A stretch of DNA of 64,000 nt. Origin: Trichocoleus sp. (GTDB lineage: Bacteria; Cyanobacteriota; Cyanobacteriia; Elainellales; Elainellaceae). The DNA lies in assembly GCA_036702865.1 (NCBI GenBank), contig DATNQD010000054.1, forward strand, positions 1-64,000. The letters are read 5' to 3'. Positions 9,268-25,129 of the stretch are shown here, piece after piece. The notes under the pieces were generated by a model. The model saw only the letters and a program-made list of their open reading frames with translations, had not been told where the DNA came from and ran no database searches. The position numbers and the translations under genes are program-made. Numbering within the stretch: position 1 is the stretch's first letter; every line of letters begins with the position of its first letter.

Positions 9268-9574
9268 AGTGGATTGCTACAAATGCGTTTCGACTCAGTT
9301 GCCAACCCCAGACGGGCATCAGCATCGCGATGATTCTGATTGAATAATTAGAACCCTCATCAGAACCATTATTCCGCAGACTGAGCCATCCCCGATAGGC
9401 TGATCGCTAAATTGGGAGAAGGCAGGAAATTGGCCGATCGAGCAGGTATCCCTCAAGAAACGGGATGAACGCCCTCAAAATAAAATAGGGCAGCAGAGCC
9501 AATCAATGCTCTTACTACCCCTGAGACTGCGGAGAGACGAATTTTTAACGAAACGTATCTACCCAGGAAAACAC
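9268..9574. other. Intergenic region with two small hairpins
   Basis: 307 bp containing the promoter side of dapL and the 3' side of the DUF4278 gene. Two short inverted repeats are visible: ATCCC/GGGAT at 9448-9466 and GCCCT/AGGGC at 9471-9491. Neither is followed by a T run on the minus strand, so they are not clear terminators. No gene seen. Confidence 0.5.
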
Positions 9575-9994
9575 CTAGGCAAACAGATTAAATTCCCGCT
9601 CCAAATCCTGAAGCAGTAGCTCGTCACCCCGCATCTTTGCTGCTTGAATTCGCTGCTCCAGGCGGCGTCTGATGTTTTGCCGATGTACTTCGGTCACTTC
9701 ATCTTTCTGAAGTCGTTGAATCTGCAGTGCTAGAGGTAGCCCCGAAACGGTCGATCGAGCAGGTGGCTCAACAGCAGAACGAGAATTCAGAGCCGCTTGA
9801 AGCTGACCCCTTACATCGGTACGGCAAACTGCTCCCCGATAGAGCAGGGTATGAACAGGCTGAGGGACGGGAACGTGACGAGGATAACTGACGCCGAAGG
9901 ACTGACCTCGATATTGCCCTGTCAAACCACTGTTTGTCATTTCTACCGAAGTCGGATCATAATCGTATTCGGCACCACGATATGAGAGTCTCAT
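9575..9994 (-). CDS. DUF4278 domain-containing protein
   Basis: 139 residues. The N-terminal MRLSYRGAEYDYDP and later GQYRGQSFGVSYPR plus LLYRGAVCRT form the short RG-centred repeat that defines DUF4278, a family common in cyanobacteria with unknown role. The C-terminal 55 residues are charged and helical (RQNIRRRLEQRIQAAKMRGDE), possibly a coiled coil. No signal peptide. Monocistronic between dapL and the amino-acid transporter operon. Confidence 0.85.
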   Translation of the reverse strand: MRLSYRGAEYDYDPTSVEMTNSGLTGQYRGQSFGVSYPRHVPVPQPVHTLLYRGAVCRTDVRGQLQAALNSRSAVEPPARSTVSGLPLALQIQRLQKDEVTEVHRQNIRRRLEQRIQAAKMRGDELLLQDLEREFNLFA

Positions 9995-17787: not shown

Positions 17788-17898
17788 CGGGACGAAAAAT
17801 ATCCTCCACTGCAACTTTTTTTGTTGCAACAAAGGATAAGTTCTAACGGGCTACCAAACTGCTGAAGTAAAACGCTGAAACAGGCTACCTAATGTTGT

Positions 17899-18927
17899 TT
17901 AAAGCGGGGAAATTTTAGGGAGCGTGCCATAAGTAACACCGAGTTTTTTTAGCCACTGACGGTAGGCTAGAGAACCTCGATCGCAGGGTAAGTGGAATTC
18001 TAGATTTCCATCCAGGGGGAGGCGTTTGGGATAATGAGACTCCAGGTTAGTGCCATCCTGAGCAAAGACCTTTTCCTGAAATGCAGTGGCTTCTGCTTCG
18101 TTGATTGCATCGGCAAAGTCAAAGGTAAGACACATCCAGCCAACAAACGATTCCTCAGTGATGGGCGTGACGAAATAGAGGATGTTGAGGTGATGACCAT
18201 TGGGCATTGTTTTGCGTAGGCAAGCAACCAGTGGACGCAGTGCCCAGTAATCATAAGTGACAATCGCGCCATTTCCTGTGCCATCCGGATCAGGTTGCCA
18301 ATAGCGAATATCGTGCAGCCAAACGCCTTGGTCTGTGGTCGTCACTTCATAATCTTCGACTTCTGGCTTGTCAGGATCACCGAGAATGCCGTAATGCACA
18401 AAGGAAAAGTGAGCCACATCCAGGAAATTTTCGATCGCCCGAAACCCATTGGACTGGCAGAAGTGAGGTCCTGTTGAAAAGCGGCGATAGTTCGGATCAT
18501 CCCACTCCAAGAAATTTGGAATCGGCTGCTGCGGTTCACCCAGACAAACAAAAACAAGCCCATACTGCTCCTGTACTGAATAAGCTCGAACACAGGCTTG
18601 CTTAGGCGGTCGATAATTTGGATGTGCCGGGGCTTTGATGCAGCGTCCTTCCGTGTTGTAAACCAGCCCGTGATAGGAACAAATGACTGTATCATTGACA
18701 ATTTGCCCTTGCGAGAGGCGAACACTGCGATGTGGACAGCGATCCTCCCAGGCACACAGCTGATTTTCTTCGCTGCGCCACAGCACTAAATCTGTTTCCA
18801 GAACCCTCACGGGTATTAGCACACCGGGTTGAAGATCTTGCGATCGAGCGACTGCATACCAATCATTCCAAATGGCGGGGTCAGGAGTAATGGGCTTGAA
18901 GTAAGCAGCATTGATAGTATCTTGCAT
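17899..18927 (-). CDS. Rieske-type aromatic ring-hydroxylating oxygenase
   Basis: 342 residues. The N-terminal Rieske [2Fe-2S] domain has CPHRSVRLSQG and CSYHGLVYN (C-x-H and C-x2-H ligands). The mononuclear iron site is ENFLDVAHFSFVH, with the bridging Asp and two His. This is the alpha subunit of a single-component-type oxygenase (vanillate O-demethylase, pheophorbide oxygenase, N-demethylase group), which needs a separate reductase. It is 52 bp downstream of a nucleoside-type ABC permease and probably the last gene of that operon. Substrate unknown. Confidence 0.88.
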   Translation of the reverse strand: MQDTINAAYFKPITPDPAIWNDWYAVARSQDLQPGVLIPVRVLETDLVLWRSEENQLCAWEDRCPHRSVRLSQGQIVNDTVICSYHGLVYNTEGRCIKAPAHPNYRPPKQACVRAYSVQEQYGLVFVCLGEPQQPIPNFLEWDDPNYRRFSTGPHFCQSNGFRAIENFLDVAHFSFVHYGILGDPDKPEVEDYEVTTTDQGVWLHDIRYWQPDPDGTGNGAIVTYDYWALRPLVACLRKTMPNGHHLNILYFVTPITEESFVGWMCLTFDFADAINEAEATAFQEKVFAQDGTNLESHYPKRLPLDGNLEFHLPCDRGSLAYRQWLKKLGVTYGTLPKISPL

Positions 18928-18979
18928 CTCTCGTAAACCTTTCTGTCAATATGTTGAATGAATAATGCTGAACGAATTT

Positions 18980-19972
18980 TTAGTCTTGCTGAAAGACCTT
19001 TCCTAGCGCCGCAGGAGGTGTACTATGCACCAGTTGAATGACGATACGGCTGAATGCAGGTGGCAATAATTTCAGCAATCGATCGAGCCATTCACTGGAT
19101 GTCAGAACCAGGAACAAAATCATTAATACAAACGGTGCAACTGTTAATACTTGGGTTGGAATATTAGTCAACGTACTTTGAACAACACTTGCCAAAGATT
19201 GGAGAATCCCAAAGAGATAGCAGCCAAACGCAACTCGCAACGGATTCCAACCACCAAAAATAACGATCGCTAGTACAATCCAACCATATCCTGCCGTATG
19301 TCGCTGACTCCAGCCTGCCTTAAAATCGAGAGAAAAAGCCGCGCCTGCAATTCCCATCAACGCACCGCCCAAAACAGTATAGAGATAGCGCATCAGTACC
19401 ACATTCGTTCCCCGCACAAATGCTGCCGCTGGCTGCTCACCGATCGATCGTAGCGTCAAACCGGGGCGAGTTCGATAAAAGAAAATTGCCGTACCAATAA
19501 TCAGTAGATAGCTGAGATAAACCAGCAGATCACTCTGAAAAAAGAGTTGTCCGACGATCGGAATATCTTGCAGCAGCGGCAGTTTAAAGCTGGGAACCGT
19601 AGGACCTGGAATCCGGACAAATGGATTGCCTAAAAAAGAAGACAAATCGCCACAAAGTAGAGCCAACACAAAGCCGATCGCCACTTGTGACTGTTTCAGC
19701 GTCAGCGCCCCGAAGGCGACAATCAGGGCAATTGCAGCTCCGGTCAGGGCGGCACAGAAAAACCCAAGCAATAAACTGGGAACTGTTCCAAGACTTTCAG
19801 TCGTTTTGGCAACCGCAAATCCAACCATTGCCGAGAGCAAAATTGTTCCTTCCGCAGACAGGTTAATCACCCCTGCCCGTTCAGTAATCGTTTCACCGAC
19901 AGCAGCAAAAATGAGTGGGGTAGATGTGGCGATCGCGACAGAGAGGATAGCGATAATTTGGGCGGCTTCCAT
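18980..19972 (-). CDS. Nucleoside ABC transporter permease (BmpD/NupQ type)
   Basis: 330 residues with about eight to ten hydrophobic segments. N-terminal ATSTPLIFAAVGETITERAGVINLSAEGTILL is the hallmark of the second permease of BMP-type nucleoside transporters; GFAVA and GTNVVLMRYL follow. It pairs with the next permease upstream. The gene lies 60 bp after that permease and 52 bp before the Rieske oxygenase gene. Confidence 0.9.
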   Translation of the reverse strand: MEAAQIIAILSVAIATSTPLIFAAVGETITERAGVINLSAEGTILLSAMVGFAVAKTTESLGTVPSLLLGFFCAALTGAAIALIVAFGALTLKQSQVAIGFVLALLCGDLSSFLGNPFVRIPGPTVPSFKLPLLQDIPIVGQLFFQSDLLVYLSYLLIIGTAIFFYRTRPGLTLRSIGEQPAAAFVRGTNVVLMRYLYTVLGGALMGIAGAAFSLDFKAGWSQRHTAGYGWIVLAIVIFGGWNPLRVAFGCYLFGILQSLASVVQSTLTNIPTQVLTVAPFVLMILFLVLTSSEWLDRLLKLLPPAFSRIVIQLVHSTPPAALGKVFQQD

Positions 19973-20032
19973 TTGGGGAGGAGATAGGGAGTAGAGGAGT
20001 AAGGAGAGGAGGTGATGGGAAAGATACTCAGA

Positions 20033-21064
20033 CTATCCAGGCTTAGAAGACGGACTTTTTCGATCGCTAAAGCCGCGCCCCAGGAGGGCAAAGAGCACCA
20101 GGGTTCCCTGGATAACGCCGGATAAAGAAGACTCCAAGTTTAGGGAGAGGGGCAGTTGGAGGCTGCCAATATTTAGGGCGCTGAAAAAGAAGCCGATCGG
20201 TAGGATCAACCAGGCATTGGAGCCAATGAGCATCGCGATCAGGAGAGCCAAATAGCCCAAATTGCTGGAAATTGTTGGAATGAGGCGGTGAAACACTGCC
20301 AGCACCTGTAGCGCTCCGGCAAGCCCAGCAAAGGCACCACAAATTGCAAAAGCACTTAAAAGTTGTCGGATGGAAGGAATGCCCAGAACATAAGCAGAGC
20401 GGAGATTTTGCCCAACAGCTTTTAACTGAAGACCAAAATAGGTGCCGCGCATGACAACGATCGTTAAGCCCAATGCTGCCAGTGCAATAAGCAAGGCGAT
20501 CGGGCTAGCTTCGGTTTTGCCAAGGGTGGGCAACCAAAGAGCATCTGGAATGAGTTCTGTGCCGCTCATTGAAGCAACCCCGGCACGCTTCCAGGGACCA
20601 AAAACCAGATAGATTGCCAGTCCATCGGCAACGAAGTTTAGCCCCAGTCCAGCAAAGATCTCATTAATATGACCATAAACATTTAAGACTCCTGCCAGCA
20701 AGCCCCAAAGCAGACCGCCTAAAGCGCCAGCCAGAATTGCCAGCAGAATGACGATCGGTGGCGGTAAAACATCCTGAAATAGGCGAATGGGAATCATCGC
20801 AACGATCGCCCCAAAGCTGATCTGTCCCTCAATACCGAGGTTATACAGCCCTGCCGTAAAGGTAAACATTAAGCCACAGGCACAAAGAACGAGGGGGACA
20901 ACGGTCATCAAAACCCGTGCAAACTGATCCGGTGTGCCAAATGCCCCAGATGTCATACTTGAGAGCACTTCGATCGGAGAGCCGCCAACCAGCACAATCA
21001 GCAGCGCACTAAACAGAAGGGAAAGAACGATCGCGCCTGCCTGGTAGAAGAGGGATCTGGACAT
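20033..21064 (-). CDS. Nucleoside ABC transporter permease (NupP type)
   Basis: 343 residues, multi-pass. Contains CACGLMFTFTAGLYNLGIEGQ, the NupP/YufP-like counterpart of the LivM motif, and FGLQLKAVGQNLRSAYVLGIPSIR as the ATPase-coupling loop. Forms the inner-membrane channel with the following permease. The end is rich in charged residues (GRGFSDRKSPSSKPG). 80 bp of purine-rich spacer separates it from the ATPase gene. Confidence 0.9.
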   Translation of the reverse strand: MSRSLFYQAGAIVLSLLFSALLIVLVGGSPIEVLSSMTSGAFGTPDQFARVLMTVVPLVLCACGLMFTFTAGLYNLGIEGQISFGAIVAMIPIRLFQDVLPPPIVILLAILAGALGGLLWGLLAGVLNVYGHINEIFAGLGLNFVADGLAIYLVFGPWKRAGVASMSGTELIPDALWLPTLGKTEASPIALLIALAALGLTIVVMRGTYFGLQLKAVGQNLRSAYVLGIPSIRQLLSAFAICGAFAGLAGALQVLAVFHRLIPTISSNLGYLALLIAMLIGSNAWLILPIGFFFSALNIGSLQLPLSLNLESSLSGVIQGTLVLFALLGRGFSDRKSPSSKPG

Positions 21065-21146
21065 AAAAAGCTAGGGAGCAGGGAACAGTGGGGAAGTCGT
21101 GAGCAGGAGAAGAAAATAAGGGAATTAAAGAAAATGAAGAGAAGAG

Positions 21147-22646
21147 TTAGGAAACAATTTCCTGCTGCATCAGGGGTGTAGCATAGTCCAACCTGCCGCC
21201 AATCATTTGCCCCAGTCGATCGGCGGTGAGTTCGGCAACGGGAATCGGCTCAGAAACTTGACCACTGCTAAAAACGATAACCCGATCGCTGTATTGCATG
21301 ATTTCATCCAGATCAGAGGACGTAAACAGAATCGTTGTTCCGCCTTCGCAACGAGCAATCAGCTGCTGCCAGACCCAGAGACTCGACTCAATATCCAGCC
21401 CTCGCGTCGGGTGTTCCATTAAAAGCAAATTGAGCGGTACGGGTAATAGAGCCAGCTGAGTGCGCTGCTGGTTGCCGCCTGACAGTCGCTCAACAAGGCT
21501 ATCGGGCCTACCGCGAATGTTGAACAGCGTGATCAAATGCTGTGTCTTTTCCAGCATTGCTTTCCAGTTGACAAACCAGCTTTTGGGCGGATTTCGCAGC
21601 GCTACATGCTCCTGAATTGAAAGCCCCGGAACTAAGCCTTCCCGAAGCCGATCGGCGGGAAAAAAGCCAATTCCAGCATTTAGGTGAGCCGCATAAGATT
21701 TGTGCGTCATGTCTTGCTCATGCAGCCACACTTTGCCCGTAGGAGTTTTGAGCAGCCCGGCACAGAGTTGCAGCAGCAGCTGTTGTCCACTCCCTTCTAG
21801 CCCAGCCAACCCAATCACTTCCCCCTGATGCACCGTCAGCTCAGGAATGGTGATGTGTAGTCGATCGCTCACCATTGCTGCTTGATGCAGATGCAGGGCG
21901 ATCGATTCGCGACGAGTCTTAGGCTTAACCGGAAGTGCCAGTTCATGCCCAAAAATTAATTGCACCAACGTTTGATCAGAACAGGGAACTGGCAAATTGC
22001 CGACCACCTGTCCCTGCCGCATGACTGTGACTCGATCGCACAGTTCGTTCACATCTTCGAGCTTGTGCGACACAAAAATCACTGATTTTCCTTGTCCTGC
22101 CAGTTGTCGAGCAGCAGAGAACAATGCCTCTTTCTGGGATGCAGAAATTCCGGTTGTCGGTTCATCCAGAATCAGCGTGTTCACTCCTAGCGACAGGAGG
22201 CGCAAAATTTCAAGCTGCTGCCGCTCGCCCACAGTTAGCTCACCGACCTGAGCGTGAATATTCAGGTCAAAGTTAAACTGAGCTGCCAGTTGACGAAACT
22301 CTCGCACCACCTGCCGCCGATCCATCCAGATGCCGCCTGCTTTGCCTGCCATGAAGTTTTCCAGCACAGAGAGGGGCGGAAAGTCGAGCGGGTCTTGATG
22401 CAGCATCCCAATCCCGGCTCGAATTGCGTCAGCGGGAGTCCGAATCTTGATGGTGCGTCCATCAAACAGAATTTGACCTGCATCATGACTGATGAAGCCG
22501 CTCAAGATTTTAACCAGCGTGCTTTTTCCTGCCCCATTCTCGCCCAGTAAGCCTTGAATACTCCCTGCTTCAACCGTGAAGGAAACCCGATCGTTCGCCT
22601 GGACTGCACCAAACCGCTTACTGATGTCCTGAAGTTCAACTTTCAT
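21147..22646 (-). CDS. Nucleoside ABC transporter double ATPase (NupO type)
   Basis: 499 residues with two ABC domains, as in sugar and nucleoside importers of the CUT2/BMP class. Domain 1: Walker A GENGAGKST, signature LTVGERQQLEI, Walker B LILDEPTTG. Domain 2: a degenerate Walker A (GLEGSGQQ), LSGGNQQRTQLA and LLLMEHPTRGLD. Domain 2 lacking a canonical lysine is normal for this family, so domain 1 hydrolyses ATP. The gene starts 11 bp after the binding-protein gene. Confidence 0.92.
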   Translation of the reverse strand: MKVELQDISKRFGAVQANDRVSFTVEAGSIQGLLGENGAGKSTLVKILSGFISHDAGQILFDGRTIKIRTPADAIRAGIGMLHQDPLDFPPLSVLENFMAGKAGGIWMDRRQVVREFRQLAAQFNFDLNIHAQVGELTVGERQQLEILRLLSLGVNTLILDEPTTGISASQKEALFSAARQLAGQGKSVIFVSHKLEDVNELCDRVTVMRQGQVVGNLPVPCSDQTLVQLIFGHELALPVKPKTRRESIALHLHQAAMVSDRLHITIPELTVHQGEVIGLAGLEGSGQQLLLQLCAGLLKTPTGKVWLHEQDMTHKSYAAHLNAGIGFFPADRLREGLVPGLSIQEHVALRNPPKSWFVNWKAMLEKTQHLITLFNIRGRPDSLVERLSGGNQQRTQLALLPVPLNLLLMEHPTRGLDIESSLWVWQQLIARCEGGTTILFTSSDLDEIMQYSDRVIVFSSGQVSEPIPVAELTADRLGQMIGGRLDYATPLMQQEIVS

Positions 22647-22657
22647 GGCAGTTGTCT

Positions 22658-23947
22658 CTACTTGCTGGCTCCGTCCATTCCCTGAAGCAGTTGTGGCATG
22701 TACCAGATTTGCTGATCAGTAGCCGCTTTTCCAGACTCTACAAAGGTTGAACCATCTTGAAACTTGATTGGACCTTTGTAAGGGTTAATGCTGCCATCAC
22801 TCAAGCCCTTAACAAACTGATCCATCGATTGCTTCCGATCGCCCAGTGCCTTCCCTTCAATAAAACCGATGATGGAACTTTGAGGATCGGCAATGTTCTT
22901 CCAATCAGGGCCTAGCCAAACAAAATCATTCGGCATTTGACCTGACTTCGCCTTCTCGATCGCTGCTTTGTAAGGCACTGTCCACTGATAAAAGGGAACG
23001 CCCAGACAGATATCAGGGGCGAGCGTGCAACCACCCTTAAAGTCATAATGGACATATTTCACAGGCTTGCCTGCTGCTGCTGCTTTCTTGGCTTGAGCAG
23101 AAACTTCGGGCGTATCGATCCCCGACATCACGACATCAAAACCGCTGTTATAGTAGTCATCCGCAACTTTTGTTGGGTCAAGCGTTTTACCGGGAATGTT
23201 AAACCAGAATCCAATCCAGGTAACTTTGAAATCAAGGTCAGCAGCGGGCTTCTGGCGGTAGTTTTCCCAGCAGTATTTCGCGCCTAAGTAGGCAGCAGAG
23301 GTGTATCGTCTCGTCTCATCGTTAATGATTGGACCCACATAGCCAATCTTGCCCGTTTCTGTCCCCAGCGCTGCTGCACAGCCTGCCATCATCTTGCCAT
23401 ATTCCATCCGCCCCATAATATTGCCTAAGTTGGGCTGATTCTTGTAGTTCTGCCCTTCCTTCCAGGCATAGTCACCCGAAGCGTGAACCACAGGAACATC
23501 AGGGTGCTTTTTCGCCGTTTCGAGCGCATCATCTTTGAAATCATCCGAGTTAAAGATGATCATGTTTGCACCTTTAGAAACCAGATCATCTGCAACCTGG
23601 GCACTGGTGACATTGGGACGATCGCCCGGATTTACCTTGTCAACGTAGTCAAACTTGAGATTGGGAATCGTTTTTTGCAGATCCTGCATGGCATCAAAAT
23701 GTGCCTGGTTCCAGCCTGCATCATTGCGAGGTCCGACTAGCACCATGCCAACGGTAAAATCTTCACCTGCTGCCGCGGAACTGACAGGACTAGAAGCCGT
23801 GTTGGAATTCGTTGTCGGGCTGCCACAGCTAACAATTAACCCTAATGTGGCAAAAAATAAGCCAGCACTGCGCCAGGAATTGCGCCAGGAGCGGCGAAGA
23901 AACAATGACACTGGAGAAAAACGTTGCTCTAGAAAGCGAGTCATCAT
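22658..23947 (-). CDS. BMP-family nucleoside-binding lipoprotein
   Basis: About 429 residues from ATG 23947. A basic, Arg-rich N-terminus, hydrophobic stretch and lipobox LIVSC (Cys near residue 41) mark a lipoprotein. The mature part is a BMP/Med-type periplasmic binding fold: FTVGMVLVGPRNDAGWNQAHFDAM, KGANMIIFNSDDFKD, GYVGPI and FDVVMSGIDTPEV. BMP proteins bind purine nucleosides. Start is uncertain: ATG 23944 is next to it and ATG 23989 adds 14 residues; none has a clear ribosome site. First gene of the operon that ends in the Rieske oxygenase. Confidence 0.9.
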   Translation of the reverse strand: MMTRFLEQRFSPVSLFLRRSWRNSWRSAGLFFATLGLIVSCGSPTTNSNTASSPVSSAAAGEDFTVGMVLVGPRNDAGWNQAHFDAMQDLQKTIPNLKFDYVDKVNPGDRPNVTSAQVADDLVSKGANMIIFNSDDFKDDALETAKKHPDVPVVHASGDYAWKEGQNYKNQPNLGNIMGRMEYGKMMAGCAAALGTETGKIGYVGPIINDETRRYTSAAYLGAKYCWENYRQKPAADLDFKVTWIGFWFNIPGKTLDPTKVADDYYNSGFDVVMSGIDTPEVSAQAKKAAAAGKPVKYVHYDFKGGCTLAPDICLGVPFYQWTVPYKAAIEKAKSGQMPNDFVWLGPDWKNIADPQSSIIGFIEGKALGDRKQSMDQFVKGLSDGSINPYKGPIKFQDGSTFVESGKAATDQQIWYMPQLLQGMDGASK

Positions 23948-24574
23948 ATTTATCAGTTTGACGAGATCGGAAGAAGCGGCAACTGCCATTACTACAGACT
24001 CAATTGATCCACAAAATGAAACTACTTGGAGTCTGCATCAATACTGTACTAAAGAATTTCTTGCTTAATCTCTTTCCAATTTGCCTGAATAACCTGAAAC
24101 AGCATTTTTTGCTCAAGCATTACTCGCTAATGATAGCGAAACGTTTTTCAGTTGACAGGGCATCAACAGTCGGCGTTTTAGTACAGCAGCGAGATAATCA
24201 TGGCATCACAGCTTCTCAACGGGTGCATTGCTCTGGTTAGTGCAAATTTTGCTAATAATCTTTTATCAACTGGAATACAACCAGCCTCATCTGACAAGAT
24301 ACCCATCTCACGATATGTATCAACAAAAACAGTTCAGTTGTTTTTTAGAAGAATCTGAGCAGAAATGTTGTATTGCAGACGACAGCAAGCAGAGGATTTC
24401 GAGGGTGGAAAGACAGAGGGCAGTTACTACAGAGATTAGAACAACCAGAGGTTAGAACAACGCGATCGAGCAAAACTTAGATAATCAAAATCCGCCTGAA
24501 CTGATAGACTCAATTCGGCGGAGCAAGAACCCTGATCGAATCAAGAATTGCTCGATTGGCTAAAACCTGAAACG
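23948..24574. other. Long intergenic region with dps terminator
   Basis: About 630 bp, AT-rich, upstream of the nucleoside transporter operon and downstream of dps. It probably holds the operon promoter. Frames at 24004-24240 and 24228-24455 have no ribosome site and unlikely composition. A hairpin at the right side is listed separately. Confidence 0.5.
24483..24522 (-). terminator. Probable rho-independent terminator of dps
   Basis: On the minus strand TCCGCCGAA pairs with a matching TTC-A-GGCGGA arm around a 13-base loop, then TTTTGATTAT follows. It lies about 50 bp after the dps stop codon. Confidence 0.55.
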
Positions 24575-25129
24575 CTAGTTGCCGTTTGCCAGGGTGAAAG
24601 CGGGAGTAAGACTGTCTTGGGTCAGGAAGTGGCTGAGATGGAAGGCGCGATCTTCTGTTTCCATCAAAATTTTCTCGTACATGTAGCGCGTGGCTCGATC
24701 GCCTAGGCTCTCTGCTTGCCCTGCTTGTTGCCGCAGGAGACGAATGATTGCCTGTTCTGCCTCCAAGTCATGGATCACCATATCTCGACAAGAAAAAATG
24801 CCATCGGGTTCAGGGGTGAAACAGCAGAGTTCAGCAAGCTTCGTAAAGCTGGCAGCAGGCACACCACCCAGACCGTTTAGCCGTTCGCCCAGATCATGAA
24901 CATGTCCTTGTGCTTTACCATAGCCTTCATCAAAAAACTGATGCAAGGAGTAAAATTCGGCTCCTTCAACTACAAAGTGATGTTTTTGATACTGCAAATA
25001 CAGCGCCTGGAAGCTTGACATTGCGATATTAAGCCCTTCACAGATGGCAGTTGTGACATGGGTTTCCAGTAGAATTGGGTTGTCACGCACCTGATTAAAG
25101 GGCTGTAGTACAGTTGCAGTTGTCACCAT
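24575..25129 (-). CDS. dps: Dps family protein with His-type ferroxidase site
   Basis: 184 residues, a Dps/ferritin-like four-helix protein that forms a 12-subunit cage and stores iron while consuming peroxide. Aligning with Listeria Dps numbering, the intersubunit iron site reads His31, His43, Asp47, His58, Glu62, here residues H51, H63, D67, H78 and E82 ([26 protein letters not shown]). The usual Asp58 is a His. This matches the atypical cyanobacterial class known from Nostoc punctiforme Dps4. A GAGGAG ribosome site precedes ATG 25129. Single gene with its own terminator. Confidence 0.9.

Follow-up and report, generated by a model that had tools for sequence, protein, structure and literature searches.

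The window analysed here, a stretch of 64,000 nucleotides from a Trichocoleus sp. genome (G000, contig C54), carries on its minus strand, at positions 17,899–23,947, a five-gene operon that runs from a BMP lipoprotein through a double ATPase and two permeases to a Rieske oxygenase, with intergenic gaps of 11, 82, 60 and 52 bp in operon order. An uptake system of this type with a Rieske oxygenase 52 bp further on had been proposed in the initial annotation, and all five genes were confirmed, in that order and on the minus strand. The features are:

22658..23947, minus strand: BMP-family substrate-binding lipoprotein, first gene, 429 aa (PF02608, 51.3 bits)
21147..22646, minus strand: double-domain ABC ATPase (two PF00005 stretches)
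20033..21064, minus strand: ABC permease A (PF02653, 104 bits)
18980..19972, minus strand: ABC permease B (PF02653, 108 bits; 83–89% identity to the copies in orthologous operons)
17899..18927, minus strand: VanA/SxtT-type Rieske non-heme iron monooxygenase, last gene (PF00355, 81.5 bits; VanA_C PF19112, 77 bits)
17800..17838, minus strand: terminator-like hairpin at the operon end (16-pair stem followed by a T run; consensus match only)

The Pfam matches to lipoprotein, double ATPase and two permeases together give the composition of a BMP-type ABC importer. The best NCBIfam model of the ATPase is that of the BMP-type ATPase, with a score under the model cut-off. The lipid-anchor residue Cys41 of the lipoprotein is invariant across orthologues, and its start at 23947 fits the orthologue starts better than the alternative in-frame ATG at 23989. 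The hairpin, about 60 bp beyond the oxygenase stop codon, is strong and terminator-like and would close the operon. Downstream lie a GNAT gene and ampG, both oppositely oriented; dpsA lies upstream, over 600 bp from the binding-protein gene, and is read in the same direction as the operon. All of the three closest operons (window, L037 and L038) retain dpsA (24575-25129 in the window) a short way upstream of this gene. No Rfam riboswitch, of the purine type or another, was found in the window or in five related loci. There is no perfect NtcA box upstream of the operon, nor are perfect boxes in excess.

Oxygenase orthologues, with 46–74% identity to the window protein, were collected from the genomes of 60 relatives and by scanning GTDB genomes, which gave 27 non-redundant loci. 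The 25 loci with at least 2.2 kb of upstream sequence form the informative set, and in 12 of these two co-directional BMP-type permeases lie directly upstream of the oxygenase, so that the pair is indeed kept in other cyanobacteria, as the initial annotation had asked to be checked. Six of the 12 have the window-type transporter and six a divergent, paralogous BMP-type transporter that is only ~35% identical to it; at one of the latter (L058) just the two permeases are still recognisable. One further informative locus has the binding protein alone upstream, and about half of the oxygenase orthologues lack a transporter. Plasmid pLBX of Leptolyngbya boryana is a named example of an orthologous operon. 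The window-type binding protein occurs in 9 of 13 genomes with the oxygenase versus 5 of 47 without it (Fisher p = 6.6e-5, relatedness ignored). Since the same gene order is found in six genomes with the window transporter and at six loci with the divergent one, chance pairing is excluded, and its recurrence with two pumps across many related cyanobacteria indicates a real functional unit. Neither transporter type is confined to a single branch of the oxygenase clade, so the coupling to BMP importers is either old or arose repeatedly with different importers. Literature searches returned no description of this operon, nor of such a setting for a separate clade within the VanA type.

A 4'-phosphopantetheinyl-transferase-like gene lies upstream at L063, L068 and L079. 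It abuts the oxygenase at L063 and L079, while at L068 the transporter lies between the two, an arrangement consistent with loss of the transporter genes at L063 and L079.

The oxygenase has the Rieske ligands C64, H66, C83 and H86 (CxH, CxxH) as well as the iron ligands H173, H178 and D291 and the bridging D170, all of which are invariant in the alignments. By sequence the closest solved structures are those of SxtDIOX/SxtT (E ~1e-72), followed by NdmA (E ~1e-34). The AlphaFold2 model (pLDDT 82.9) gave the same ranking by Foldseek, with SxtT/GxtA on top (TM ~0.9), then NdmA, and NdmB and DdmC following. In the maximum-likelihood tree the window protein belongs to a 23-row clade with support 100/98, which is nested in a larger cyanobacterial group. 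SxtDIOX belongs to that group as well, its exact position being uncertain due to its long branch. The oxygenase is thus a VanA-type Rieske monooxygenase from a cyanobacterial clade with good support. This clade stands apart from the Ndm-like plasmid proteins (in a tree built without authentic CBB5 sequences), from the HpxO-adjacent group and from the Acinetobacter hpx oxygenases, which form another clade with cyanobacterial members of its own (Klebsiella HpxD is not in the tree).

SxtT and GxtA (SxtDIOX), which are C-H hydroxylases, are the closest characterised relatives, with 38% identity and the same catalytic ligands. The window clade is separate from them and, other than they, tied to an importer operon. 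Their substrate contacts Q226, D239 and Y273 (PMC7293229) correspond to A235, I249 and Q284 of the window protein, and similar replacements are found clade-wide. The next relatives, NdmA and NdmB, are VanA-type Rieske monooxygenases that act on purine rings as methylxanthine N-demethylases. The motif AF[N/Q]xxVFAxD is common to them and the window oxygenase, in which Gln284 is aligned with the position changed to Gln in the NdmA QL mutant 6icp. In NdmA this position sets the choice between N1 and N3. Gln at 284 is found in neighbouring clades as well.

No reductase gene lies at the locus, as the initial annotation had noted, and a whole-genome query of G000 for a VanB-type reductase returned ferredoxin-domain matches only. 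NdmA and NdmB, in contrast, use an NdmD-type reductase, and Rhodococcus and Pantoea relatives have a VanB-type gene adjoining the oxygenase. As no VanB-type reductase was found in G000, the electron donor is likely a stand-alone ferredoxin. SxtT accepts a non-native VanB donor in vitro.

The importer had been called nucleoside-type. Its BMP type holds, but bases seem a more likely cargo than nucleosides: the lipoprotein has as its nearest solved relatives, albeit at low overall identity, 3s99, in which adenine is modelled, and 6pi5/AtzT, whereas nucleoside-binding BmpD is a far weaker match. AtzT binds guanine with a KD of ~110 nM (PMC6834077). The structure model of the binding protein (pLDDT 49.7) is too poor for use. 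In the sequence alignment four pocket residues of AtzT, Y45, S97, E165 and W194, are kept as W79, S134, E211 and W248. Where AtzT has the base-contacting N218 and N220, the window protein has G276 and D278, so the ligand need not be guanine. As judged from this alignment, the ligand is likely base-like.

Although no purine enzyme adjoins the operon in the window itself, purine genes are found at orthologous loci. At L070 the full operon faces opposite-strand genes for XdhC and both xanthine dehydrogenase (XDH) subunits, the latter scoring over the equivalog cut-offs. At L042 the genes after the orthologue encode HpxO (616 bits), another Rieske oxygenase, HIU hydrolase and OHCU decarboxylase, a urate-oxidation cluster. 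Elsewhere in G000 xdh genes are divergent from hpxO, with HIU hydrolase also present (contig C79), and OHCU decarboxylase occurs with a deaminase-like amidohydrolase (contig C64). Among the 25 genomes with the oxygenase 21 have HpxO over the cut-off, 23 OHCU decarboxylase and 21 the XDH domain MoCoBD_1. HpxO co-occurrence is weakly informative since HpxO is common in relatives (38 of 60 genomes; association with the oxygenase p = 0.02 only). A set of 229 genomes chosen around one from the Burkholderiales gave no HpxO match.

Two side observations concern these loci. Directly after the xdh genes of L070 lies part of a second ATPase gene of the window type (9315-9743), which suggests that the xanthine dehydrogenase genes once had a further transporter copy beside them. 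Furthermore, the genomes G056, G063 and G065, which have HpxO and no clear XDH match, and G008, with a weak XDH match, have a second Rieske protein that is located beside HpxO or is of the Acinetobacter hpx type; examples of second Rieske genes are found at L042 (11720-12904), L152 (7911-8969), L189 and L191. This second Rieske oxygenase is a likely substitute for XDH in cyanobacteria.

The reading we consider somewhat more probable than not is that the operon takes up a purine-like base, which is oxidised with electrons from ferredoxin and enters purine catabolism. The lipoprotein would capture a flat, purine-like base outside the cytoplasm and the ABC transporter would bring it into the cell, where the Rieske monooxygenase, possibly a homotrimer as are its relatives, would oxidise it with electrons from a stand-alone, perhaps photosynthetic, ferredoxin. 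The product might then feed the purine breakdown route of the host via xanthine dehydrogenase, HpxO, HIU hydrolase and OHCU decarboxylase and serve as nitrogen source. The earlier idea that a modified nucleoside or base is imported and oxidised is hereby partly supported: a purine-like substrate is suggested by the relatives and pocket of the binding protein, the xdh and HpxO genes that neighbour orthologues and the rank of NdmA as second-nearest characterised relative. Points against this reading are the window locus with no adjoining purine enzyme, the orthologues that lack a transporter, the two changed base contacts in the pocket, the commonness of HpxO among relatives, the Gln of neighbouring clades at position 284, and the negative outcome for purine riboswitches and NtcA boxes.

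Which chemistry such an enzyme would perform is a further matter, and two variants of the preferred reading can be distinguished. N-demethylation of a methylated purine taken up by the importer, for instance methylxanthine or methylguanine, completed by XDH, had been raised on the basis of known Rieske N-demethylases. It is in line with NdmA being the second-nearest characterised family, with the match of Q284 to the Gln of the QL mutant, and with Rhizobium relatives in which a BMP transporter accompanies a split oxygenase and a GST, an arrangement reminiscent of NdmC/NdmE. The fact that 21 of the 25 oxygenase genomes have xanthine dehydrogenase, which would render a hypoxanthine or xanthine hydroxylase redundant, also argues for chemistry beyond XDH, for example N-demethylation. 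The idea loses ground, however, by the separation of the window clade from the Ndm-like branch, by nearest characterised relatives that are C-H hydroxylases, by an identity to NdmA of ~26% in the structure match, and by the absence of formaldehyde-detoxifying genes beside the window oxygenase; we hold it for possible only. The other variant, an HpxD-like ring hydroxylation of hypoxanthine, xanthine or another unmethylated purine, is suggested by the orthologue directly upstream of hpxO at L042 and by Klebsiella HpxDE, a Rieske system that oxidises hypoxanthine and xanthine (PMC7373994). It seems unlikely given that xanthine dehydrogenase coexists in most oxygenase genomes and that the different Rieske proteins of G056, G063, G065 and G008, either hpxO neighbours or members of the Acinetobacter hpx type, fit the role better. 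A part for the window oxygenase as replacement of XDH was lowered in our ranking for the same reasons. Oxidative N-demethylation of a methylated purine is rated slightly above ring hydroxylation.

Beyond purines, the importer could take up another flat ring, a non-purine N-heterocycle or guanidine-type compound, with the oxygenase as a catabolic or biosynthetic cousin of SxtT. That SxtT and GxtA are the nearest characterised enzymes by both sequence and fold speaks for this, as do relatives outside the window clade that lie in biosynthetic-looking clusters (L078, L162 and L164). We nevertheless hold it for less likely than a purine-like substrate, because the SxtT/GxtA substrate contacts are not kept in the window clade and because transporter and neighbouring genes point to purines. 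A last alternative is a chlorophyll-degradation type of oxygenase that lies beside an unrelated transporter by chance. The initial annotation had named such an oxygenase type, and a lack of conservation of the pair, as outcomes that would refute its idea, and neither was observed. Cyanobacteria do have several such PaO/CAO-type Rieske oxygenases, and G000 itself encodes two proteins with the PaO domain PF08417, but that domain is absent from the window oxygenase, and the oxygenase is repeatedly linked to two transporter types, hence this explanation was rejected as extremely improbable.

Returning to the import and oxidation of a purine-like base, a more specific proposal can be put forward tentatively. 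The window clade may represent a new cyanobacterial family of ferredoxin-driven purine Rieske oxygenases with operon-linked base importers, which would oxidise a modified purine into the urate pathway, a methylated base released in nucleic-acid turnover being one example; SxtT and GxtA, whose substrate has a perhydropurine-like skeleton, would share ancestry with it. Cyanobacterial purine scavenging is little described in the literature searched. With a light-linked oxygenase and a base importer in one operon, cyanobacteria would have a further route to organic nitrogen, possibly including methylated bases beyond the reach of the standard purine enzymes. The SxtT/GxtA hydroxylases would also gain a catabolic relative open to testing, from which the search for functions of the many VanA-type Rieske enzymes that are still uncharacterised could start.

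Rieske proteins that are more distant yet likewise adjoin BMP genes were found at L050, on an Acinetobacter hpx plasmid (L172), in Rhizobium (L163) and on a plasmid of the caffeine degrader Paraburkholderia caffeinilytica (L173). In hpx clusters, such as Klebsiella hpxDE and that of the Acinetobacter plasmid, the Rieske oxygenase is linked to HpxO, and on the latter plasmid a BMP transporter and a deaminase accompany it. The Rhizobium sp. K102 plasmid locus (L163, 9983-18150) has a Rieske oxygenase split over two genes, after which come a GST gene and the BMP transporter; split oxygenase and GST recall NdmC/NdmE, while the catalytic half is closest to SxtDIOX. A sister Rieske group (L050, 1-3626, and L051-L054) lies beside amidohydrolase, creatininase or agmatinase-like genes, and at L050 its Rieske gene comes directly after a BMP-type permease. 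Finally, G000 has a second BMP-type transporter on contig C59 (L150, 8995-17331), located among a nitrilase-like and two isochorismatase-like genes, as named from the starts of their sequences.
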